Of a stretch of DNA of 48,991 bases, positions 20,309-26,496 are shown one piece after another. The stretch is from Gracilinema caldarium (GTDB lineage: Bacteria; Spirochaetota; Spirochaetia; Treponematales; Breznakiellaceae). The notes beneath the pieces are model-generated. The model was not told the DNA's origin and did not search any database. It was given only the letters and a program-made list of their open reading frames with translations. Positions within the stretch are counted from its first letter, which is position 1. Every line of letters starts with the position of its first letter. The stretch covers positions 1-48,991 of the forward strand of contig NZ_JAJUHW010000001.1 in the NCBI RefSeq assembly GCF_029265695.1. The letters are read 5' to 3'. The position numbers were made by a program, and so were the translations under genes.

Positions 20309-20336
20309 TTGACAGAAATTTATATTTATGCATATT
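20309..20336 (+). promoter_or_regulatory. Promoter of the arginine operon
   Basis: TTGACA (20309-20314), a perfect -35, is followed after 16 bases by CATATT (20331-20336), a four of six match to the -10. The spacer is AT-rich and contains TTTATATTTATGCA, loosely like an ARG box, so ArgR could also act here. The predicted start of transcription is about 20343-20344. Confidence 0.55.
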
Positions 20337-20343
20337 TATACCT

Positions 20344-20379
20344 ATGAACCTAAGGCATCGACGCCTCCGTAGACCCTAA
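20344..20379 (+). CDS. Possible arginine-rich leader peptide
   Basis: An ORF of 11 codons and a stop between the promoter and argJ reads MNLRHRRLRRP. Five residues are Arg, using five different codons (AGG, CGA, CGC, CGT, AGA). The ATG falls at the predicted transcription start, so it would be translated without a leader. Leader peptides rich in the end-product amino acid are the classic sensor of transcription or translation attenuation. CCGTAG inside the Arg codons can pair with CTGCGG (20409-20414), and CTCCGT with ACGGAG (20451-20456), so ribosome stalling could change folding ahead of argJ. No strong terminator is seen. That the peptide is made, and that it regulates, is inference. Confidence 0.4.
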   Translation: MNLRHRRLRRP

Positions 20380-20486
20380 CCCATCTCTATGCACCGCTTC
20401 AGGATAGACTGCGGCGGATCTTTTCTCGTCTGAGCAATGACTTTAGCACAACGGAGTTATATAAATAAACTTAATAAGGAGCGGAT
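20380..20486 (+). promoter_or_regulatory. Putative structured 5' leader of argJ
   Basis: Between the possible leader peptide and argJ lies a weak hairpin (CCG, CAG paired with CTG, CGG; 20394-20414) followed by a short T-rich stretch. Then come ACGGAG, an AT-rich segment and the ribosome binding site AAGGAG (20476-20481). Function as an attenuator is a suggestion only. Confidence 0.3.
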
Positions 20487-21713
20487 ATGAAACAGATTGA
20501 TGGCGGCCTGTGCGCACCCAAGGGCTTTCGAGCCGGAGGTGTGTGGTGCGGGATTCGTAAAAAGAATGATAAGAGGGATCTTGCGCTGATCGTTTCCGAC
20601 CGCCTTTGTACCGCCGCTGGCATGTATACGACCAATAAAGTAAAAGCAGCCAGTGTTCTCGTGACCCGCGAACACCTTGCATCAGGCCGCTGTCAGGCGG
20701 TGATCTGCAATTCGGGAAATGCCAACGCCTGCACCGGCGAGGCGGGGCTCGACGCCGCCCGCCGCATGGCCCGTGCCGCAGCCGCAGCCCTTTCCATCGA
20801 TCCAGCCCTGGTGGCCGTCGGGTCAACCGGCGTTATCGGTGTCCCCCTCCCGGTAGAAAAGGTAGAGGCTGCCATGCCGGACCTGGTCTGTTCCCTCTCC
20901 GCAGATTACAAGGGCCATGCGGCGGCCCTGGAAGCCATTATGACCACCGACACGCGCAAAAAAGAAATCGCCCTGGAAATTGAGCTGGACGGCAAGCCTG
21001 TCCGAATCGGCGCCATCGCCAAGGGCGCGGGTATGATACACCCTAATATGGCAACCATGCTGAGCTTTATTACCACCGACGCGGCCATTGCGCCGGCCCT
21101 CCTCGATAGCGCCCTCCGCCTCGCCGTGAGCCGCTCCTTTAACCGCGTTACTGTGGACGGAGACACCAGCACCAACGATATGGTCGTCATCCTTGCCAAC
21201 GGTATGGCCGAAAATGCTCCTATAGAAAAGGACGACGCCAACTATCTCCGCTTCTGCGCAGCCCTGGAACAGGTGTGCATCAACCTGGCCCGTGCGATTG
21301 CCCGGGATGGGGAAGGGGCGACGCGGCTCGTTTCGTGTACTGTAAGCGGCGCTATAGATGAAAAAAACGCAGAAACCCTGGCTAAAGCGATTGTGGGCTC
21401 CAGCCTCGTCAAGGCCGCCTGTTTCGGCGCCGATGCCAACTGGGGCCGGATTCTCTGTGCCATGGGATATTCGGGCGCTGACTTTGAACCGGAAACCGTT
21501 TCGGTTCGTTTCCGCAGCAAAGCCGGGGAAGTCCTCGTATGTAAGGGCGGCTCCTCCATTCCCTTTTCGGAGGGCCTTGCAAAGGCAGTGCTTTCCGAGG
21601 AAGAAATTGACATTCTCGTGGACTTTGAACATGCCGGGGCTGCCAGCGCTACCTGCTGGGGCTGTGACCTGACCTACGACTATGTTAAAATAAACGGCGA
21701 TTACCGGTCCTGA
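20487..21713 (+). CDS. argJ: Bifunctional ornithine acetyltransferase / N-acetylglutamate synthase
   Basis: A 408-residue enzyme of the usual ArgJ length. It transfers the acetyl group from N-acetylornithine to glutamate and so recycles it in arginine synthesis; many members can also use acetyl-CoA. The self-cleavage site HPNMATMLSFITTDA lies around residue 185-199, where the Thr becomes the N-terminal nucleophile of the beta chain. Other family marks are NSGNANACTG, GSTGVIGVPLP, TVDGDTSTNDM and a C-terminal LTYDYVKINGDYR. It is first in the operon, followed by argB after 36 bases. argA and argE would not be needed with it. argC and argF are not in the window. Confidence 0.96.
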   Translation: MKQIDGGLCAPKGFRAGGVWCGIRKKNDKRDLALIVSDRLCTAAGMYTTNKVKAASVLVTREHLASGRCQAVICNSGNANACTGEAGLDAARRMARAAAAALSIDPALVAVGSTGVIGVPLPVEKVEAAMPDLVCSLSADYKGHAAALEAIMTTDTRKKEIALEIELDGKPVRIGAIAKGAGMIHPNMATMLSFITTDAAIAPALLDSALRLAVSRSFNRVTVDGDTSTNDMVVILANGMAENAPIEKDDANYLRFCAALEQVCINLARAIARDGEGATRLVSCTVSGAIDEKNAETLAKAIVGSSLVKAACFGADANWGRILCAMGYSGADFEPETVSVRFRSKAGEVLVCKGGSSIPFSEGLAKAVLSEEEIDILVDFEHAGAASATCWGCDLTYDYVKINGDYRS

Positions 21714-21749: not shown

Positions 21750-22646
21750 GTGAAGGATTTTACCATAGGAAACGAAGACCGGGCAAAGGTACTTATTCAA
21801 GCCTTGCCCTATATCCAGAAATTTATGGGCAAGACCATTGTGGTCAAATACGGCGGCAACGCCATGATCAACGAGGAGCTTAAGTCCGCGGTTATCCAGG
21901 ATGTGGTTCTCATGGCCTGTGTGGGCATCCGCACTGTTTTGGTTCACGGCGGCGGCCCTGAAATTGAATTTATGCTCCGTAAAATTGGTAAGGAGAGCCG
22001 TTTTGTTAAGGGTCTGCGCTATACCGATGAAGAAACCATGGAAATTGTCCAAATGGTCTTGGCGGGTAAGGTAAACAAGGATATTGTTTCATTAATACAG
22101 CAGGCCGGCGGCCAGGCCCTGGGCCTCTGCGGGCTTGATGGAGGGCTTTTGCAGGCCCGCAAACTAAGGACCGACGGAGAAGACCTGGGTCTTGTGGGTG
22201 AAATTATCGCAGTGCGGACCGCGGTCCTGGAGGATGTACTTAACCGGGGTTATATCCCCGTGGTATCCACCGTCGCCCAGGGGACTGAAGACGCTATGGG
22301 CCAGGCCCTTAACATTAATGCGGACACCGCGGCAGCCCAGATTGCCGCTGCTTTGGGGGCGGAAAAGCTTATCCTCATGACCGATGTCCGGGGCATACTA
22401 AAGGATGTAAACGATCCAGAATCTCTCCTCCAGGAAATCCGGCGGGGTGAACTGGATGGTCTTATAAAAGAAGGCATCGTGAGCAAGGGGATGATCCCCA
22501 AGGTAGACTGCTGCCGCCTTGCCCTAGATGCGGGGGTCCGGAAGGCCCATATCATCGACGGCCGGATTCCCCATGGGCTGCTTCTTGAGCTTTTTACCGA
22601 CGAAGGCATCGGCACCCAGGTGGTTTCCGATGTGGATAAAGGATAA
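21750..22646 (+). CDS. argB: Acetylglutamate kinase
   Basis: A 298-residue amino acid kinase that phosphorylates N-acetylglutamate, the second step of arginine synthesis and the usual target of arginine feedback. It shows VVKYGGNAM near residue 31, LVHGGGPEIEFML near 65 and LMTDVRGIL near 209, the nucleotide and substrate loops. The N-terminal helix before the kinase fold (KVLIQALPYIQKF) is the kind that forms the hexamer in arginine-inhibited members, so feedback inhibition is likely. The start is GTG with AAGGAG nine bases upstream. The stop is three bases from the argD start. Confidence 0.96.
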   Translation: MKDFTIGNEDRAKVLIQALPYIQKFMGKTIVVKYGGNAMINEELKSAVIQDVVLMACVGIRTVLVHGGGPEIEFMLRKIGKESRFVKGLRYTDEETMEIVQMVLAGKVNKDIVSLIQQAGGQALGLCGLDGGLLQARKLRTDGEDLGLVGEIIAVRTAVLEDVLNRGYIPVVSTVAQGTEDAMGQALNINADTAAAQIAAALGAEKLILMTDVRGILKDVNDPESLLQEIRRGELDGLIKEGIVSKGMIPKVDCCRLALDAGVRKAHIIDGRIPHGLLLELFTDEGIGTQVVSDVDKG

Positions 22647-22649
22647 GCA

Positions 22650-23828
22650 ATGAACGATTGTTTTATGAATACCTACCACCGGCTGCCGGTGGTATTTACC
22701 GAGGGGAGGGGAGCCCAGCTTACAGACCAGGCTGGCAAAACCTACCTGGACTTTACCTCAGGCATTGCGGTGAACTGCCTTGGCCATAACCATCCGGCCC
22801 TGGTCAGGGCTGTTAGCAGCCAGGCTGCAAAGCTCATCCATACATCAAACTATTTTTTAAGCGATACCTCCCTTGTTTTTGCTGACCGGCTCGTGGCGGC
22901 CTGCAAAGCCCTCGGCATGGAGCGGGTCTTTTTAAGCAACTCAGGGGCTGAAGCCAACGAAGGGGCTATCAAAATAGCCCGCAAATATTCCCAGACAAGG
23001 TACGGCAATGGCCGGCACCGGATCGTCACCCTGAAAGGGAGCTTTCATGGCCGAACCTTGACCACCCTATCGGCCACGGGGCAGGACCGCTTTCATCCTG
23101 ACAGTTTTGCTCCCTATACGGAGGGCTTTATCTTTGTGGAGCGGAATGACCTTGCAGCCATGGAAAAAGCGCTGGACGGAACCGTTGCGGCGGTGCTTAT
23201 GGAACCCATTCAGGGCGAAAGCGGCATCCGGCCCCTGGATAGGGCCTACGTTCAGGCTGTAGCCCAGCTTTGCCGGGAGCGGGATGTACTTCTCATGTTC
23301 GATGAGGTCCAGTCCGGCGTGGGCAGAACCGGCACTTTCCTTGCCTCGGAACTGTTCCAGGTAGAGGCTGATGTGATTACCCTGGCAAAAGGGCTAGCAG
23401 GGGGCGTGCCGGTGGGGGCCGTGCTGGCAGGGGGCCGGACAGCGGAGGTCCTCGGCGTGGGGGACCATGGGAGTACCTTCGGCGGGAATCCCCTGGCAGC
23501 CGCAGCGGGGCTTGCGGTCCTGGATACGGTGAATAGGCCTGAAATGCTGGCGGAGATCAGGCGGAAAGGAGACCTTATTATGGAAACGGTCCGCTCCTGG
23601 CAGCATCCCCAGGTCGGGGAAATCCGGGGCCGGGGCCTTATGATCGGCATCGATATCGTTTCCGATGCCTGGCCGGTGCTGGAGGCTGCCCTCGCAAAGG
23701 GGCTACTCCTCCTTTCAGCGGGCCAGAAAACCTTAAGGCTCCTCCCGCCCTATATCATAAGCGATGCGGAAATTAAAGAAGGACTTGGAATCCTCAAATC
23801 AGTCTTGGACAATTTGCCACCCCAATAA
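22650..23828 (+). CDS. argD: Acetylornithine aminotransferase
   Basis: A 392-residue class III PLP-dependent aminotransferase that makes N-acetylornithine from the semialdehyde and glutamate. It has [17 protein letters not shown] near the N-terminus, [14 protein letters not shown] (phosphate loop), [20 protein letters not shown] near 212, and the PLP Lys in [13 protein letters not shown] around residue 247. The family also includes ornithine and succinyldiaminopimelate aminotransferases, but the operon settles the role. It follows argB closely and precedes argG by 25 bases. Confidence 0.95.
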
Positions 23829-23853: not shown

Positions 23854-25113
23854 ATGAAAAAGAAAATTGTGCTTGCCTATTCGGGCGGTCTGGATACCAC
23901 GGTAATCATTCCCTGGCTCAAGGAAAACTACGATTGTGAAATCATTGCTGTCTGCGTGGACGTAGGCCAGGAGGCGGATTGGGAAACTATAAAACAGCGG
24001 GCCCTTACCACCGGAGCCGAAAAATGCTATGTGGCGGACGTTAAAAAAGAATATGTGGAAGACTATGTATGGCCCGCCCTCAAAGCCGGTGCGGTCTACG
24101 AGGATAAGTACCTTTTGGGGACCAGCACAGCCCGGCCCCTCATCGCCAAGGTCCTTGTGGACTATGCCCGCAAGGAAAAGGCCGTCGCCATCGCCCACGG
24201 TGCTACCGGCAAGGGCAACGACCAGGTTCGCTTTGATCTGGGCATCATGGCCTTTGCGCCGGACCTGGAAATCATCGCCCCCTGGCGGACCTGGAACATT
24301 AAGAGCCGGGAAGAAGAAATCGAATACCTCGAAAAACGGGGCATTCCGGTGCCCATGAAAAAGAGCGATTCCTACAGCCGGGACGACAACCTGTGGCATA
24401 TTTCCCACGAAGGGTTAGAACTGGAGGACCCGGCCAACGAGCCCAATCTGGAGCGGATGCTTAAAATGACCGTTCCGCCCGAAAAGGCTCCCGACCAGGC
24501 TGAATATGTGGAAGTAGATTTTGAAAAAGGCATCCCCGTGGCGGTCAACGGCAAAAAAATGGACGGTGTGAGCCTCATCAAAACCCTGAATAAAATCGGC
24601 GGCGCCCATGGGGTCGGCATCGTTGACCTGGTAGAAAACCGGGTCGTGGGTATGAAGAGCCGCGGGGTCTACGAAACACCCGGCGGTGCCATCCTGTACT
24701 ACGCCCACCAGGAACTGGAGCACCTGTGCCTGGACCGGCAGACCTATGCGTTCAAGCAAATGGTGAGCCAGAAAATGGCGGAAGTCATTTACGGCGGCCT
24801 CTGGTTTACCCCCCTCCGGGAAGCCCTGAGCGCCTTTGTGGATTCCACCCAGCGGACCGTGAGCGGCACCGTGCGGCTCAAGCTGTACAAGGGCTCCATT
24901 AGCGCCGCGGGCTCCCGCTCTCCCTATTCACTGTACAATACGAGTATCGCAAGCTTTACCACCGGCGAACTCTATAACCATGCGGATGCCAAGGGCTTTA
25001 TCCGGCTCTATGGGCTTCCCATCCTGGTTCGCTCCCTCATGGAGCAGGGATTTGTAAAGGGAACCCAGCATATTGATGGAACTGAAGCCAAGTCGAGCGG
25101 CGTGGCGGGGTAA
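23854..25113 (+). CDS. argG: Argininosuccinate synthase
   Basis: A 419-residue enzyme that joins citrulline and aspartate using ATP. The P-loop-like pyrophosphatase motif [10 protein letters not shown] is at residues 7-16. [13 protein letters not shown] and [14 protein letters not shown] are further family signatures. The start is the ATG at 23854 with AAGGAG (23841-23846) seven bases upstream. A longer reading frame into argD has no support. The stop is three bases ahead of argH. Confidence 0.96.
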
Positions 25114-25116
25114 TAG

Positions 25117-26496
25117 ATGGCACAGGTCTTGTGGTCCGGCAGGCTGGAAGAAAAACCCGAAGCAGAAGCCTTTGCCTTTGAATCATCCATTTCGGTAGAT
25201 TCCCGGCTTGCCCAGGAAGATATAGCCGGGAGCCGCGCCCATGTGGCCATGCTCGTGGAGCGGGGCATAATCCCCGCCGAGGCTGCCCGGGCTATCGATG
25301 AAGAACTCAAGCGGATTTCTGCTGAACTAGAAAGCGGGAAGCTCGCCATTGACCAGAATGCGGAGGATATTCACTCCTTTATAGAGGGGGTCCTCACGGA
25401 ACGACTCGGTGACGCGGGCCGCATGATTCATGCCGGCCGCAGCCGGAACGACCAGGTTGCGGTGGACCTGCGCCTGTACCTTAAGCGGGTGGTCCCCGAA
25501 ATCGCCGAGGAAATCCGGGACACCTGCGAAACCCTCCTTACAGTGGCGGAACAGCACCTGGAAACAGTCATGCCGGGCTACACTCACCTGCAGCGAGCCC
25601 AACCCGTGAGCCTTGCTCATCATCTTACCGCCTGGACCGCTGGCCTTGTTCGGGATCGGGAACGCTTCCTCGATGCCCTTTCCCGGCTTGATGAATGTCC
25701 CCTCGGTTCGGGGGCCCTTGCGACGACCACACTTGCCCTGGACCGTGAGGCGGTTGCCCGGTCCCTCGGTTTCCCCCGGCCGACGGTGAATTCTATGGAT
25801 TCTGTGGCTGACCGGGACTTTGCCCTGGAACTGGCCGGGGCAGCTGCCATACTGGCCACCCACCTTTCCCGGTTTTGCGAAGATATCATCATTTGGGCTA
25901 CGGAAGAATTTGGCTTTATCGATCTGGCAGAGCAGTGGAGTACCGGGTCCTCGATTATGCCTCAAAAGAAAAACCCCGACTTTGCGGAACTTATCCGGGG
26001 TAAGGCGGGGCGCCAGATTGGGAACCTGGTGAGTCTCCTTACCCTGCTTAAGGGGCTTCCCTATGCCTATGACCGGGATCTCCAGGAAGATAAGGAAGCA
26101 TTGTTTGATGCCCTGGACACTTCCCGTGCTACCCTCAGGATGTTCCGTCCCATGATAGCCACCGCCCGGTTCCGTAAGGACCGGATGGAAGCAGCCTGCG
26201 TCGGCGGCTTCCTGGAAGCCACCGATGTGGCCGAATACCTGGTGCGTAAGGGGCTCCCCTTCCGGAAAGCCCATGAGGTAGCCGCCCAGGTCGTGCGGGA
26301 CTGCGTGGCCGCCGGACAACGGAGTATCGCCGAGCGGACCCTGGCGGACCTCCGCAGCCGGAGCGACCTCTTCGACGCGGACCTCTACGAGGTCATCCGC
26401 CCCGCCGCGGCGCTCCGCAACCGCTCTCGGTCCGGCGGCCCCGCCCCGCAAGCAGTTACAGCCCAAATCGCCGAGCTCCGCCGCCGTCTGGGGTAA
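25117..26496 (+). CDS. argH: Argininosuccinate lyase
   Basis: A 459-residue member of the fumarase/aspartase family that splits argininosuccinate to arginine and fumarate. The signature loop GSSIMPQKKNPDFAEL is near residue 278. Family residues also include HAGRSRNDQVAVDLRLY around 107 and PGYTHLQRAQPVSLAHH around 158 with the catalytic His. It is the last gene of the arg operon. The C-terminal 40 residues are rich in Arg and Ala, following local high GC. It is convergent with a lipoprotein gene and followed by a hairpin. Confidence 0.96.
   Translation: MAQVLWSGRLEEKPEAEAFAFESSISVDSRLAQEDIAGSRAHVAMLVERGIIPAEAARAIDEELKRISAELESGKLAIDQNAEDIHSFIEGVLTERLGDAGRMIHAGRSRNDQVAVDLRLYLKRVVPEIAEEIRDTCETLLTVAEQHLETVMPGYTHLQRAQPVSLAHHLTAWTAGLVRDRERFLDALSRLDECPLGSGALATTTLALDREAVARSLGFPRPTVNSMDSVADRDFALELAGAAAILATHLSRFCEDIIIWATEEFGFIDLAEQWSTGSSIMPQKKNPDFAELIRGKAGRQIGNLVSLLTLLKGLPYAYDRDLQEDKEALFDALDTSRATLRMFRPMIATARFRKDRMEAACVGGFLEATDVAEYLVRKGLPFRKAHEVAAQVVRDCVAAGQRSIAERTLADLRSRSDLFDADLYEVIRPAAALRNRSRSGGPAPQAVTAQIAELRRRLG

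Follow-up and report, generated by a model that had tools for sequence, protein, structure and literature searches.

An arginine-codon leader recurring ahead of arginine operons in Breznakiellaceae is probably an attenuator layered on ArgR control in Gracilinema caldarium

Introduction

Arginine biosynthesis represents the textbook ArgR system, and the question raised by the argJBDGH operon of the spirochaete Gracilinema caldarium is whether its expression depends, next to ArgR, on a short arginine-rich leader open reading frame (ORF) which is located between the promoter and the first gene. The locus resides on contig NZ_JAJUHW010000001.1, positions 1 to 48,991 of the forward strand (48,991 nucleotides, in the following referred to as the window), within a genome of about 3.04 Mb; the genome of the genus-mate G001 consists of a single contig of 3,239,340 bases, and the family, Breznakiellaceae, is described in PMC13067680. 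An earlier, sequence-only reading of the window had proposed the ORF to be an attenuator that senses arginyl-tRNA. Here, sequence comparison confirms the ORF and shows it to be kept in relatives, and it is considered probable that the arg leader is an arginine-sensing leader-peptide attenuator layered on ArgR.

The leader ORF and its promoter

The leader promoter comprises the -35 hexamer TTGACA (20309..20314, + strand as for all features of the locus) and, separated by a spacer of 16, the -10 hexamer CATATT (20331-20336). The leader ORF follows at 20344..20379 and reads ATG AAC CTA AGG CAT CGA CGC CTC CGT AGA CCC TAA, which translates into MNLRHRRLRRP. Arginine accounts for five of the eleven residues and is encoded by five different Arg codons, all of which locate to the putative regulatory segment AGG CAT CGA CGC CTC CGT AGA CCC (20353..20376). 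The T/A of TATG corresponds to position +7/+8 past the -10 hexamer, which places the ATG at the predicted transcription start, and as a consequence the leader is probably translated leaderless from a transcript that starts with the leader AUG. Both the Arg-rich ORF between TTGACA and argJ and the coincidence of its ATG with the predicted start had been pointed out in the sequence-only reading and were found as described. The window contains 472 ORFs that begin with ATG and comprise 8-25 codons, and among these the leader is unique in possessing at least five Arg residues that amount to at least 40% of the peptide. When the leader was dinucleotide-shuffled behind a fixed ATG, an ORF of no more than 15 residues that included five or more Arg arose in 0.075% of the shuffles. 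Taken as a broad class, leader-peptide attenuators are characterized by a short ORF which separates the promoter from the biosynthesis genes and by enriched codons for the amino acid of the pathway that are kept in relatives, and the arg leader possesses both features.

Conservation within the genus and the family

The leader occurs in each of the genus's four genomes as well as in G017, a genome from another genus. Within the genus the peptide is MNLRHRRLRRP (window genome and G003), MKLNHRRLRRP (G002) or MKLHHRRLRKI (G001), while the leader of G017 is MYYKHLRLRRPS. All five close leaders are preceded by TTGACA and an identical TATGCATATTTATACC, and they differ in part by synonymous His, Arg and Leu codons (CAT/CAC, CGA/CGG, CGC/CGT, CTA/TTG).

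For a wider search, a model built solely from the sequences of the five close leaders was run over 200 genomes of the family, where it matched regions 5' of argC in other genera, and this was followed by inspection of the upstream regions of more than 100 family arg operons. In this way, 24 genomes belonging to 13 genera of Breznakiellaceae were found to carry, 5' of argJ or argC, a short ORF whose C-terminus holds a cluster of Arg residues, examples being MKLFFSRLHRLR and MTLYAKNIFSRFRRFR (each followed by the stop) as well as MKAYYCRSFSVPSLTRLR, MNGNTFPSGLAGVFVSSSRFFRRPF, MEIYIMNRFQSPVVFSILSRRR and MKIFSPARRYSFLRRF. These leaders comprise 11 to 44 codons, their N-termini are unrelated and an Arg ending is retained, the longer ones ending in FVRRLRRTF, SRRLRRPC or SARRLRRR directly before the stop, or in RLRLRRR. 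In 23 of the 24 the ATG is located 34-36 nt past the first T of TTGACA, the sole exception being G142, whose leader has its own Shine-Dalgarno sequence. A count made blind to the promoter yielded Arg-tailed ORFs in 24 of 107 upstream regions compared with 6.3 expected from shuffles, whereby about five of these 24 are probably chance occurrences, and the count overlooks five leaders whose ending is looser. In 40 upstream regions from outside the family the leader was not found; only three ORFs turned up there, and these resemble chance occurrences. On a quick ArgC tree, the distribution of the leader requires 8 changes compared with 13.9 for shuffled labels, hence the leader is clustered yet was gained or lost several times. 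The comparison in related spirochaetes that had been named in the sequence-only reading as the way to support an arginine-sensing leader was therefore favourable, revealing an Arg-rich ORF with changing N-termini and codons in all four genomes of the genus and in 13 genera.

A leader ahead of argC was also considered for the genus of the window and was rejected: its argC-like gene (L311-L314) is of a different type (MSYRVFVDGNAGTTGLQIGERL...) and follows a transporter gene at a site apart from the arg operon, and no leader was seen there. In G008 (L226, 5' of argC) the ORF MRRK, closed by a stop, starts with an ATG whose spacing from TTGACA is roughly as expected, which may be chance; its AGG AGA codons double as the argC Shine-Dalgarno sequence and its stop overlaps the argC start (TAATG).

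ArgR and the operator

The genome encodes ArgR (G000:C37:13976), and the promoter carries an ArgR-box-like operator, TATGCATATTTATACC (20327..20342), which overlaps the -10 hexamer, is identical in five genomes from two genera with one site per genome, and resembles the ARG box consensus. With ArgR being encoded and an ARG-box-like operator present, the promoter would be counted among the ArgR-regulated ones, and for this reason the leader is regarded as a second layer and not as a replacement of ArgR. In the sequence-only reading the leader had been set against ArgR control, beside which an Arg leader peptide was judged to be unusual; this contrast is incomplete, as the regulator is encoded and its box-like sequence overlaps the promoter.

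The question arises whether ArgR repression alone, with promoter and operator conserved and the ORF behind them incidental, would explain the locus. Within the family a box adjoining TTGACA is present in 21 of the 55 genomes that gave an ArgR match compared with 4 of 52 without (p=0.0002), the corresponding values for the leader being 19 of 55 and 5 of 52 (p 0.002), whereby many family genomes are incomplete and some of the ArgR absences are hence not real. In favour of ArgR alone, the regulator is encoded, the box is the most conserved stretch, several relatives have promoter and box but no leader, and several ArgR-positive genera carry the box without it. However, in-frame Arg codons recur across 13 genera at the ends of ORFs that are 11 to 44 codons long, the ORF is located downstream of the operator, and genus g19 retains the Arg leader with neither an ArgR match in its genomes nor a box, thus apparently having lost ArgR and box and kept the leader. 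Repression by ArgR as the sole explanation is therefore held to be unlikely.

Several further observations concern ArgR and its boxes. Almost all genomes of the large genera g54 and g10 are without an ArgR match; no Arg leader was found in these genera, and most of the genomes keep argJ. Two ArgR-box-like sites (L211, about 805-842; G000:C70:62104-62141) are located just 5' of a gene resembling those for substrate-binding proteins of amino-acid ABC transporters, which is a possible further ArgR target, and three such sites (L212, about 874-942; G000:C49:3573-3641) lie within and next to the intergenic gap that separates a citrate-synthase-like gene from a divergent one resembling asparaginyl-tRNA synthetase genes. 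Repeated TATGAATATTTATACC palindromes of other genera were considered as an ArgR regulon and were not used as evidence, as many of them seem to represent a multi-copy palindromic element. G116 and G104 each gave dozens of model matches to an AT-rich palindrome like TATAAATATTCATTTTATGAATATTTATACC, which resembles doubled ARG boxes, and similar palindromes occur at L133 and L136 (about 1501); all of these possibly represent a multi-copy intergenic element.

Arg codons, CU-rich RNA and the leader peptide

The Arg reading frame is set by the leader ATG: within the last 12 codons frame 0 holds 3.9 Arg codons and the other frames hold 0.27 and 0.44, a pattern seen in 13 of 13 genera, whereby this comparison is partly biased because the leaders were chosen in part by Arg content. 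At the same time the choice of codons is not neutral. C is the last base of the codon preceding Arg in 51 of 61 cases compared with 23.5 expected from codon usage, the pyrimidine fraction of the leaders exceeds the synonymous expectation (mean z 2.3 over genera), and this bias is found mainly in the C-terminal Arg end, where the C/G ratio is 2.0 as compared to 1.0 in spacer and genes. The biased codon choice in the Arg end implies an additional constraint at the RNA level, the genus of the window being excepted, and in the relatives the CU-biased codons hint at control by Rho or by an anti-Shine-Dalgarno sequence. The same data could be explained by a conserved CU-rich RNA element, serving as Rho loading site or anti-Shine-Dalgarno sequence, of which the Arg residues are a by-product, and a precedent exists in Salmonella speF, where orf34 senses arginine via Arg codons and contains a CU-rich Rho/anti-Shine-Dalgarno segment (PMC6386406). 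Against this stand the absence of the bias in the genus of the window, where the Arg codons include AGG, CGA and AGA, and the confinement of Arg to the frame set by the ATG. A CU-rich element by itself is thus decidedly unlikely, and CU-richness is more probably a further property of one and the same device than a competing explanation.

Alternatively, the nascent chain itself might arrest the ribosome from within the exit tunnel in response to free arginine (or to ornithine/polyamines) rather than to arginyl-tRNA, in the manner of SpeFL and the fungal arginine attenuator peptide. Distant genera do share a loosely similar ending, R-[LF]-x-R or RLRRP, but N-termini and lengths vary freely and the ending varies too (LTRFR, FFRR, SRRR, RLRKI), so that sensing by codons fits better than a defined arrest sequence, and an arrest peptide is considered very unlikely. 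Finally, a leader that senses no arginine and merely boosts basal expression by bringing ribosomes to the 5' end of the message, through leaderless loading or reinitiation, would agree with the ATG being fixed at the predicted start and with proposed reinitiation-boosting leader genes, whose distances peak at 10-11 bp (PMC4833913), but is hardly credible, as stop-to-start distances of 43-195 nt between leader and gene are too long for local reinitiation and the Arg enrichment is left unexplained.

From leader to operon: the RNA step

In the window the leader is followed by an untranslated spacer (20380..20475), which differs between species of the genus, and by the argJ Shine-Dalgarno sequence AAGGAG (20476..20481). 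The operon comprises argJ (20487..21713, PF01960), argB (21750..22646), argD (22650..23828), argG (23854..25113, PF00764/PF20979) and argH (25117..26496, PF00206/PF14698), whereby argB and argD were assigned by AA_kinase PF00696 and Aminotran_3 PF00202, respectively, together with their operon position; Pfam matches and gene order thus agree with the argJBDGH order given in the sequence-only reading. As that reading had also stated, there is no strong intrinsic terminator: none was found between leader and argJ in the window, and the arrangement of a classical attenuator, i.e., a terminator hairpin with U-tract and an alternative antiterminator, is lacking in the arg leader. Terminator-like hairpins were found in few relatives only, e.g., G006 and G046. 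The window gave no Rfam match to a known RNA family, including no T-box covariance match. Rho is encoded in the genome. The Arg segment pairs with the purine-rich Shine-Dalgarno sequence, which ranks on average within the best 12% of targets.

A number of findings weigh against an arginine-sensing attenuator. The leader is patchy on the ArgC tree with its 8 changes, 36 of the 55 ArgR-positive relatives are without it, and the pyrimidine codon bias of other genera is absent in the genus of the window. The RNA of the window leader folds no better than shuffles (z +0.49), and no conserved partner structure was found among the leaders. The two pairings suggested earlier, CCGTAG with CTGCGG and CTCCGT with ACGGAG, do occur in the window sequence and in the near-twin G003, but were rejected as a conserved structure as they are absent from G002, G001 and G017, which share the leader. 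Sequestration of the Shine-Dalgarno sequence by the Arg segment is doubtful: the pairing is only weakly better than that of synonymous codings (mean z -0.54), and masking of the Arg segment did not free the Shine-Dalgarno sequence in partition-function models (p=0.24). Of the earlier proposal, the arginine-sensing leader hence gained from the relatives, while its specific pairings and folding did not hold. Considering the lack of a terminator, the folding no better than shuffles, the unconserved pairings and the two tests, neither of which showed a designed Shine-Dalgarno switch, translational or Rho-dependent control is ranked, on weak support, ahead of intrinsic termination for the genome of the window.

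A histidine leader in the same genome

A scan of the genome for TTGACA-N28-30-ATG also returned, outside the window, a His6 leader (MKRITMNHHHHHHGYSCWGA followed by a stop) at G000:C15:21131 (L371 1501-1663). Its promoter has the geometry of the arg leader promoter and consists of TTGACA, a spacing of 17 and the -10 hexamer TAGTAT, and its ATG is located 7 nt past the latter. Located 3' of the leader are a 12-bp hairpin with an adjoining T run (RNA fold z -4.5) and a HisG-like reading frame, and equivalents were identified in G003 (L412) and in G031 of another genus (L415). Judged by these features it is a textbook-like his attenuator with its leader AUG at the predicted transcript start. Amino-acid leaders thus appear to be in use in the host organism, which renders the proposed function of the arg leader more credible.

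Proposed mechanism

The sequences show where the ORF lies, that ORFs with Arg codons recur before arg operons in 13 genera, and that an ArgR gene and an operator-like sequence are present. From these we infer that the leader is translated and that ribosomes stall on it, and also in which direction expression would change and by which RNA step, as follows. ArgR bound to the overlapping operator would represent the first, promoter-level layer. RNA polymerase would start at or within few bases of the AUG of the 11-codon leader, ribosomes would load in leaderless fashion, and the translating ribosome would meet the Arg codon cluster near the leader end. When arginyl-tRNA is plentiful, it would reach the stop and leave; when arginyl-tRNA is scarce, it would stall on the Arg codons and mask the segment and the bases just past it, whereby expression of argJBDGH would go up. 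The output in the window genome probably involves no intrinsic terminator, and translation control or Rho-dependent termination would fit better, though support for this step is weak. A more far-reaching generalization is put forward tentatively and with somewhat less than even confidence: a family-wide leaderless Arg attenuator on top of ArgR, whose Arg codons serve both as sensor and as Rho-loading/anti-Shine-Dalgarno element, which is CU-rich in most genera and needs no terminator, and which would be part of a general leaderless-attenuator habit including hisG.

Relation to known systems and significance

The classical ribosome-mediated transcription attenuators are the trp, his, leu and ilv leaders. 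With these the arg leader shares the placement of its putative regulatory codons, which close a short leader ORF before the matching operon, but it is devoid of terminator and antiterminator, while a terminator does follow the hisG leader in the same genome. ArgR/ARG-box repression, for which regulator and box-like operator are present here, acts at the promoter, unlike a leader, and arginine T-boxes differ in that they bind tRNA directly. According to Canestrari et al. 2020, as cited in PMC13236596 and PMC9031893, leaderless short ORFs with Cys codons are attenuators in mycobacteria, and candidate polycysteine short-ORF attenuators of mycobacteria are given in PMC1262725. They resemble the arg leader in having a short ORF at the 5' end of the message (a predicted 5' end for the arg leader), codons of the pathway beside the stop and no conserved terminator; the arg leader, here a putative attenuator, differs from them by arginine in place of cysteine, its spirochaete host and its ArgR-box-like operator. 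Terminator-free actinobacterial leaders include one with codons pairing to the Shine-Dalgarno sequence (PMC1262725): this LEU element likewise has a codon run able to do so and needs no terminator, but possesses a conserved pseudoknot, and nothing like it was found in the arg leader. SpeFL (orf34, PF10940) reports arginine through Arg codons in a leader ORF and has the CU-rich rut (Rho utilization)/anti-Shine-Dalgarno sequence in that leader ORF, yet it controls ornithine decarboxylase and has 34 codons, its own Shine-Dalgarno sequence and a conserved HIRRT core (PMC6386406), whereas MNLRHRRLRRP lacks this core and precedes argJ instead of speF.

Leader-peptide systems were surveyed in 2010 in Proteobacteria, Actinobacteria and, newly, Firmicutes (PMC2965389), and most documented cases of such attenuation come from Proteobacteria, Actinobacteria and some Firmicutes (PMC2965389, PMC1262725). 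Among the open-access papers searched, none was found to describe a leader with Arg codons before the arginine biosynthesis genes of a bacterium, nor a leader-peptide attenuator in spirochaetes. Gracilinema caldarium is cultured, which makes direct testing feasible, and genus g19, in which ArgR was apparently lost but the leader kept, offers a natural experiment. Two sensors on one promoter, with ArgR responding to free arginine and the leader to charged tRNA, would provide a clean test of why cells layer sensors.
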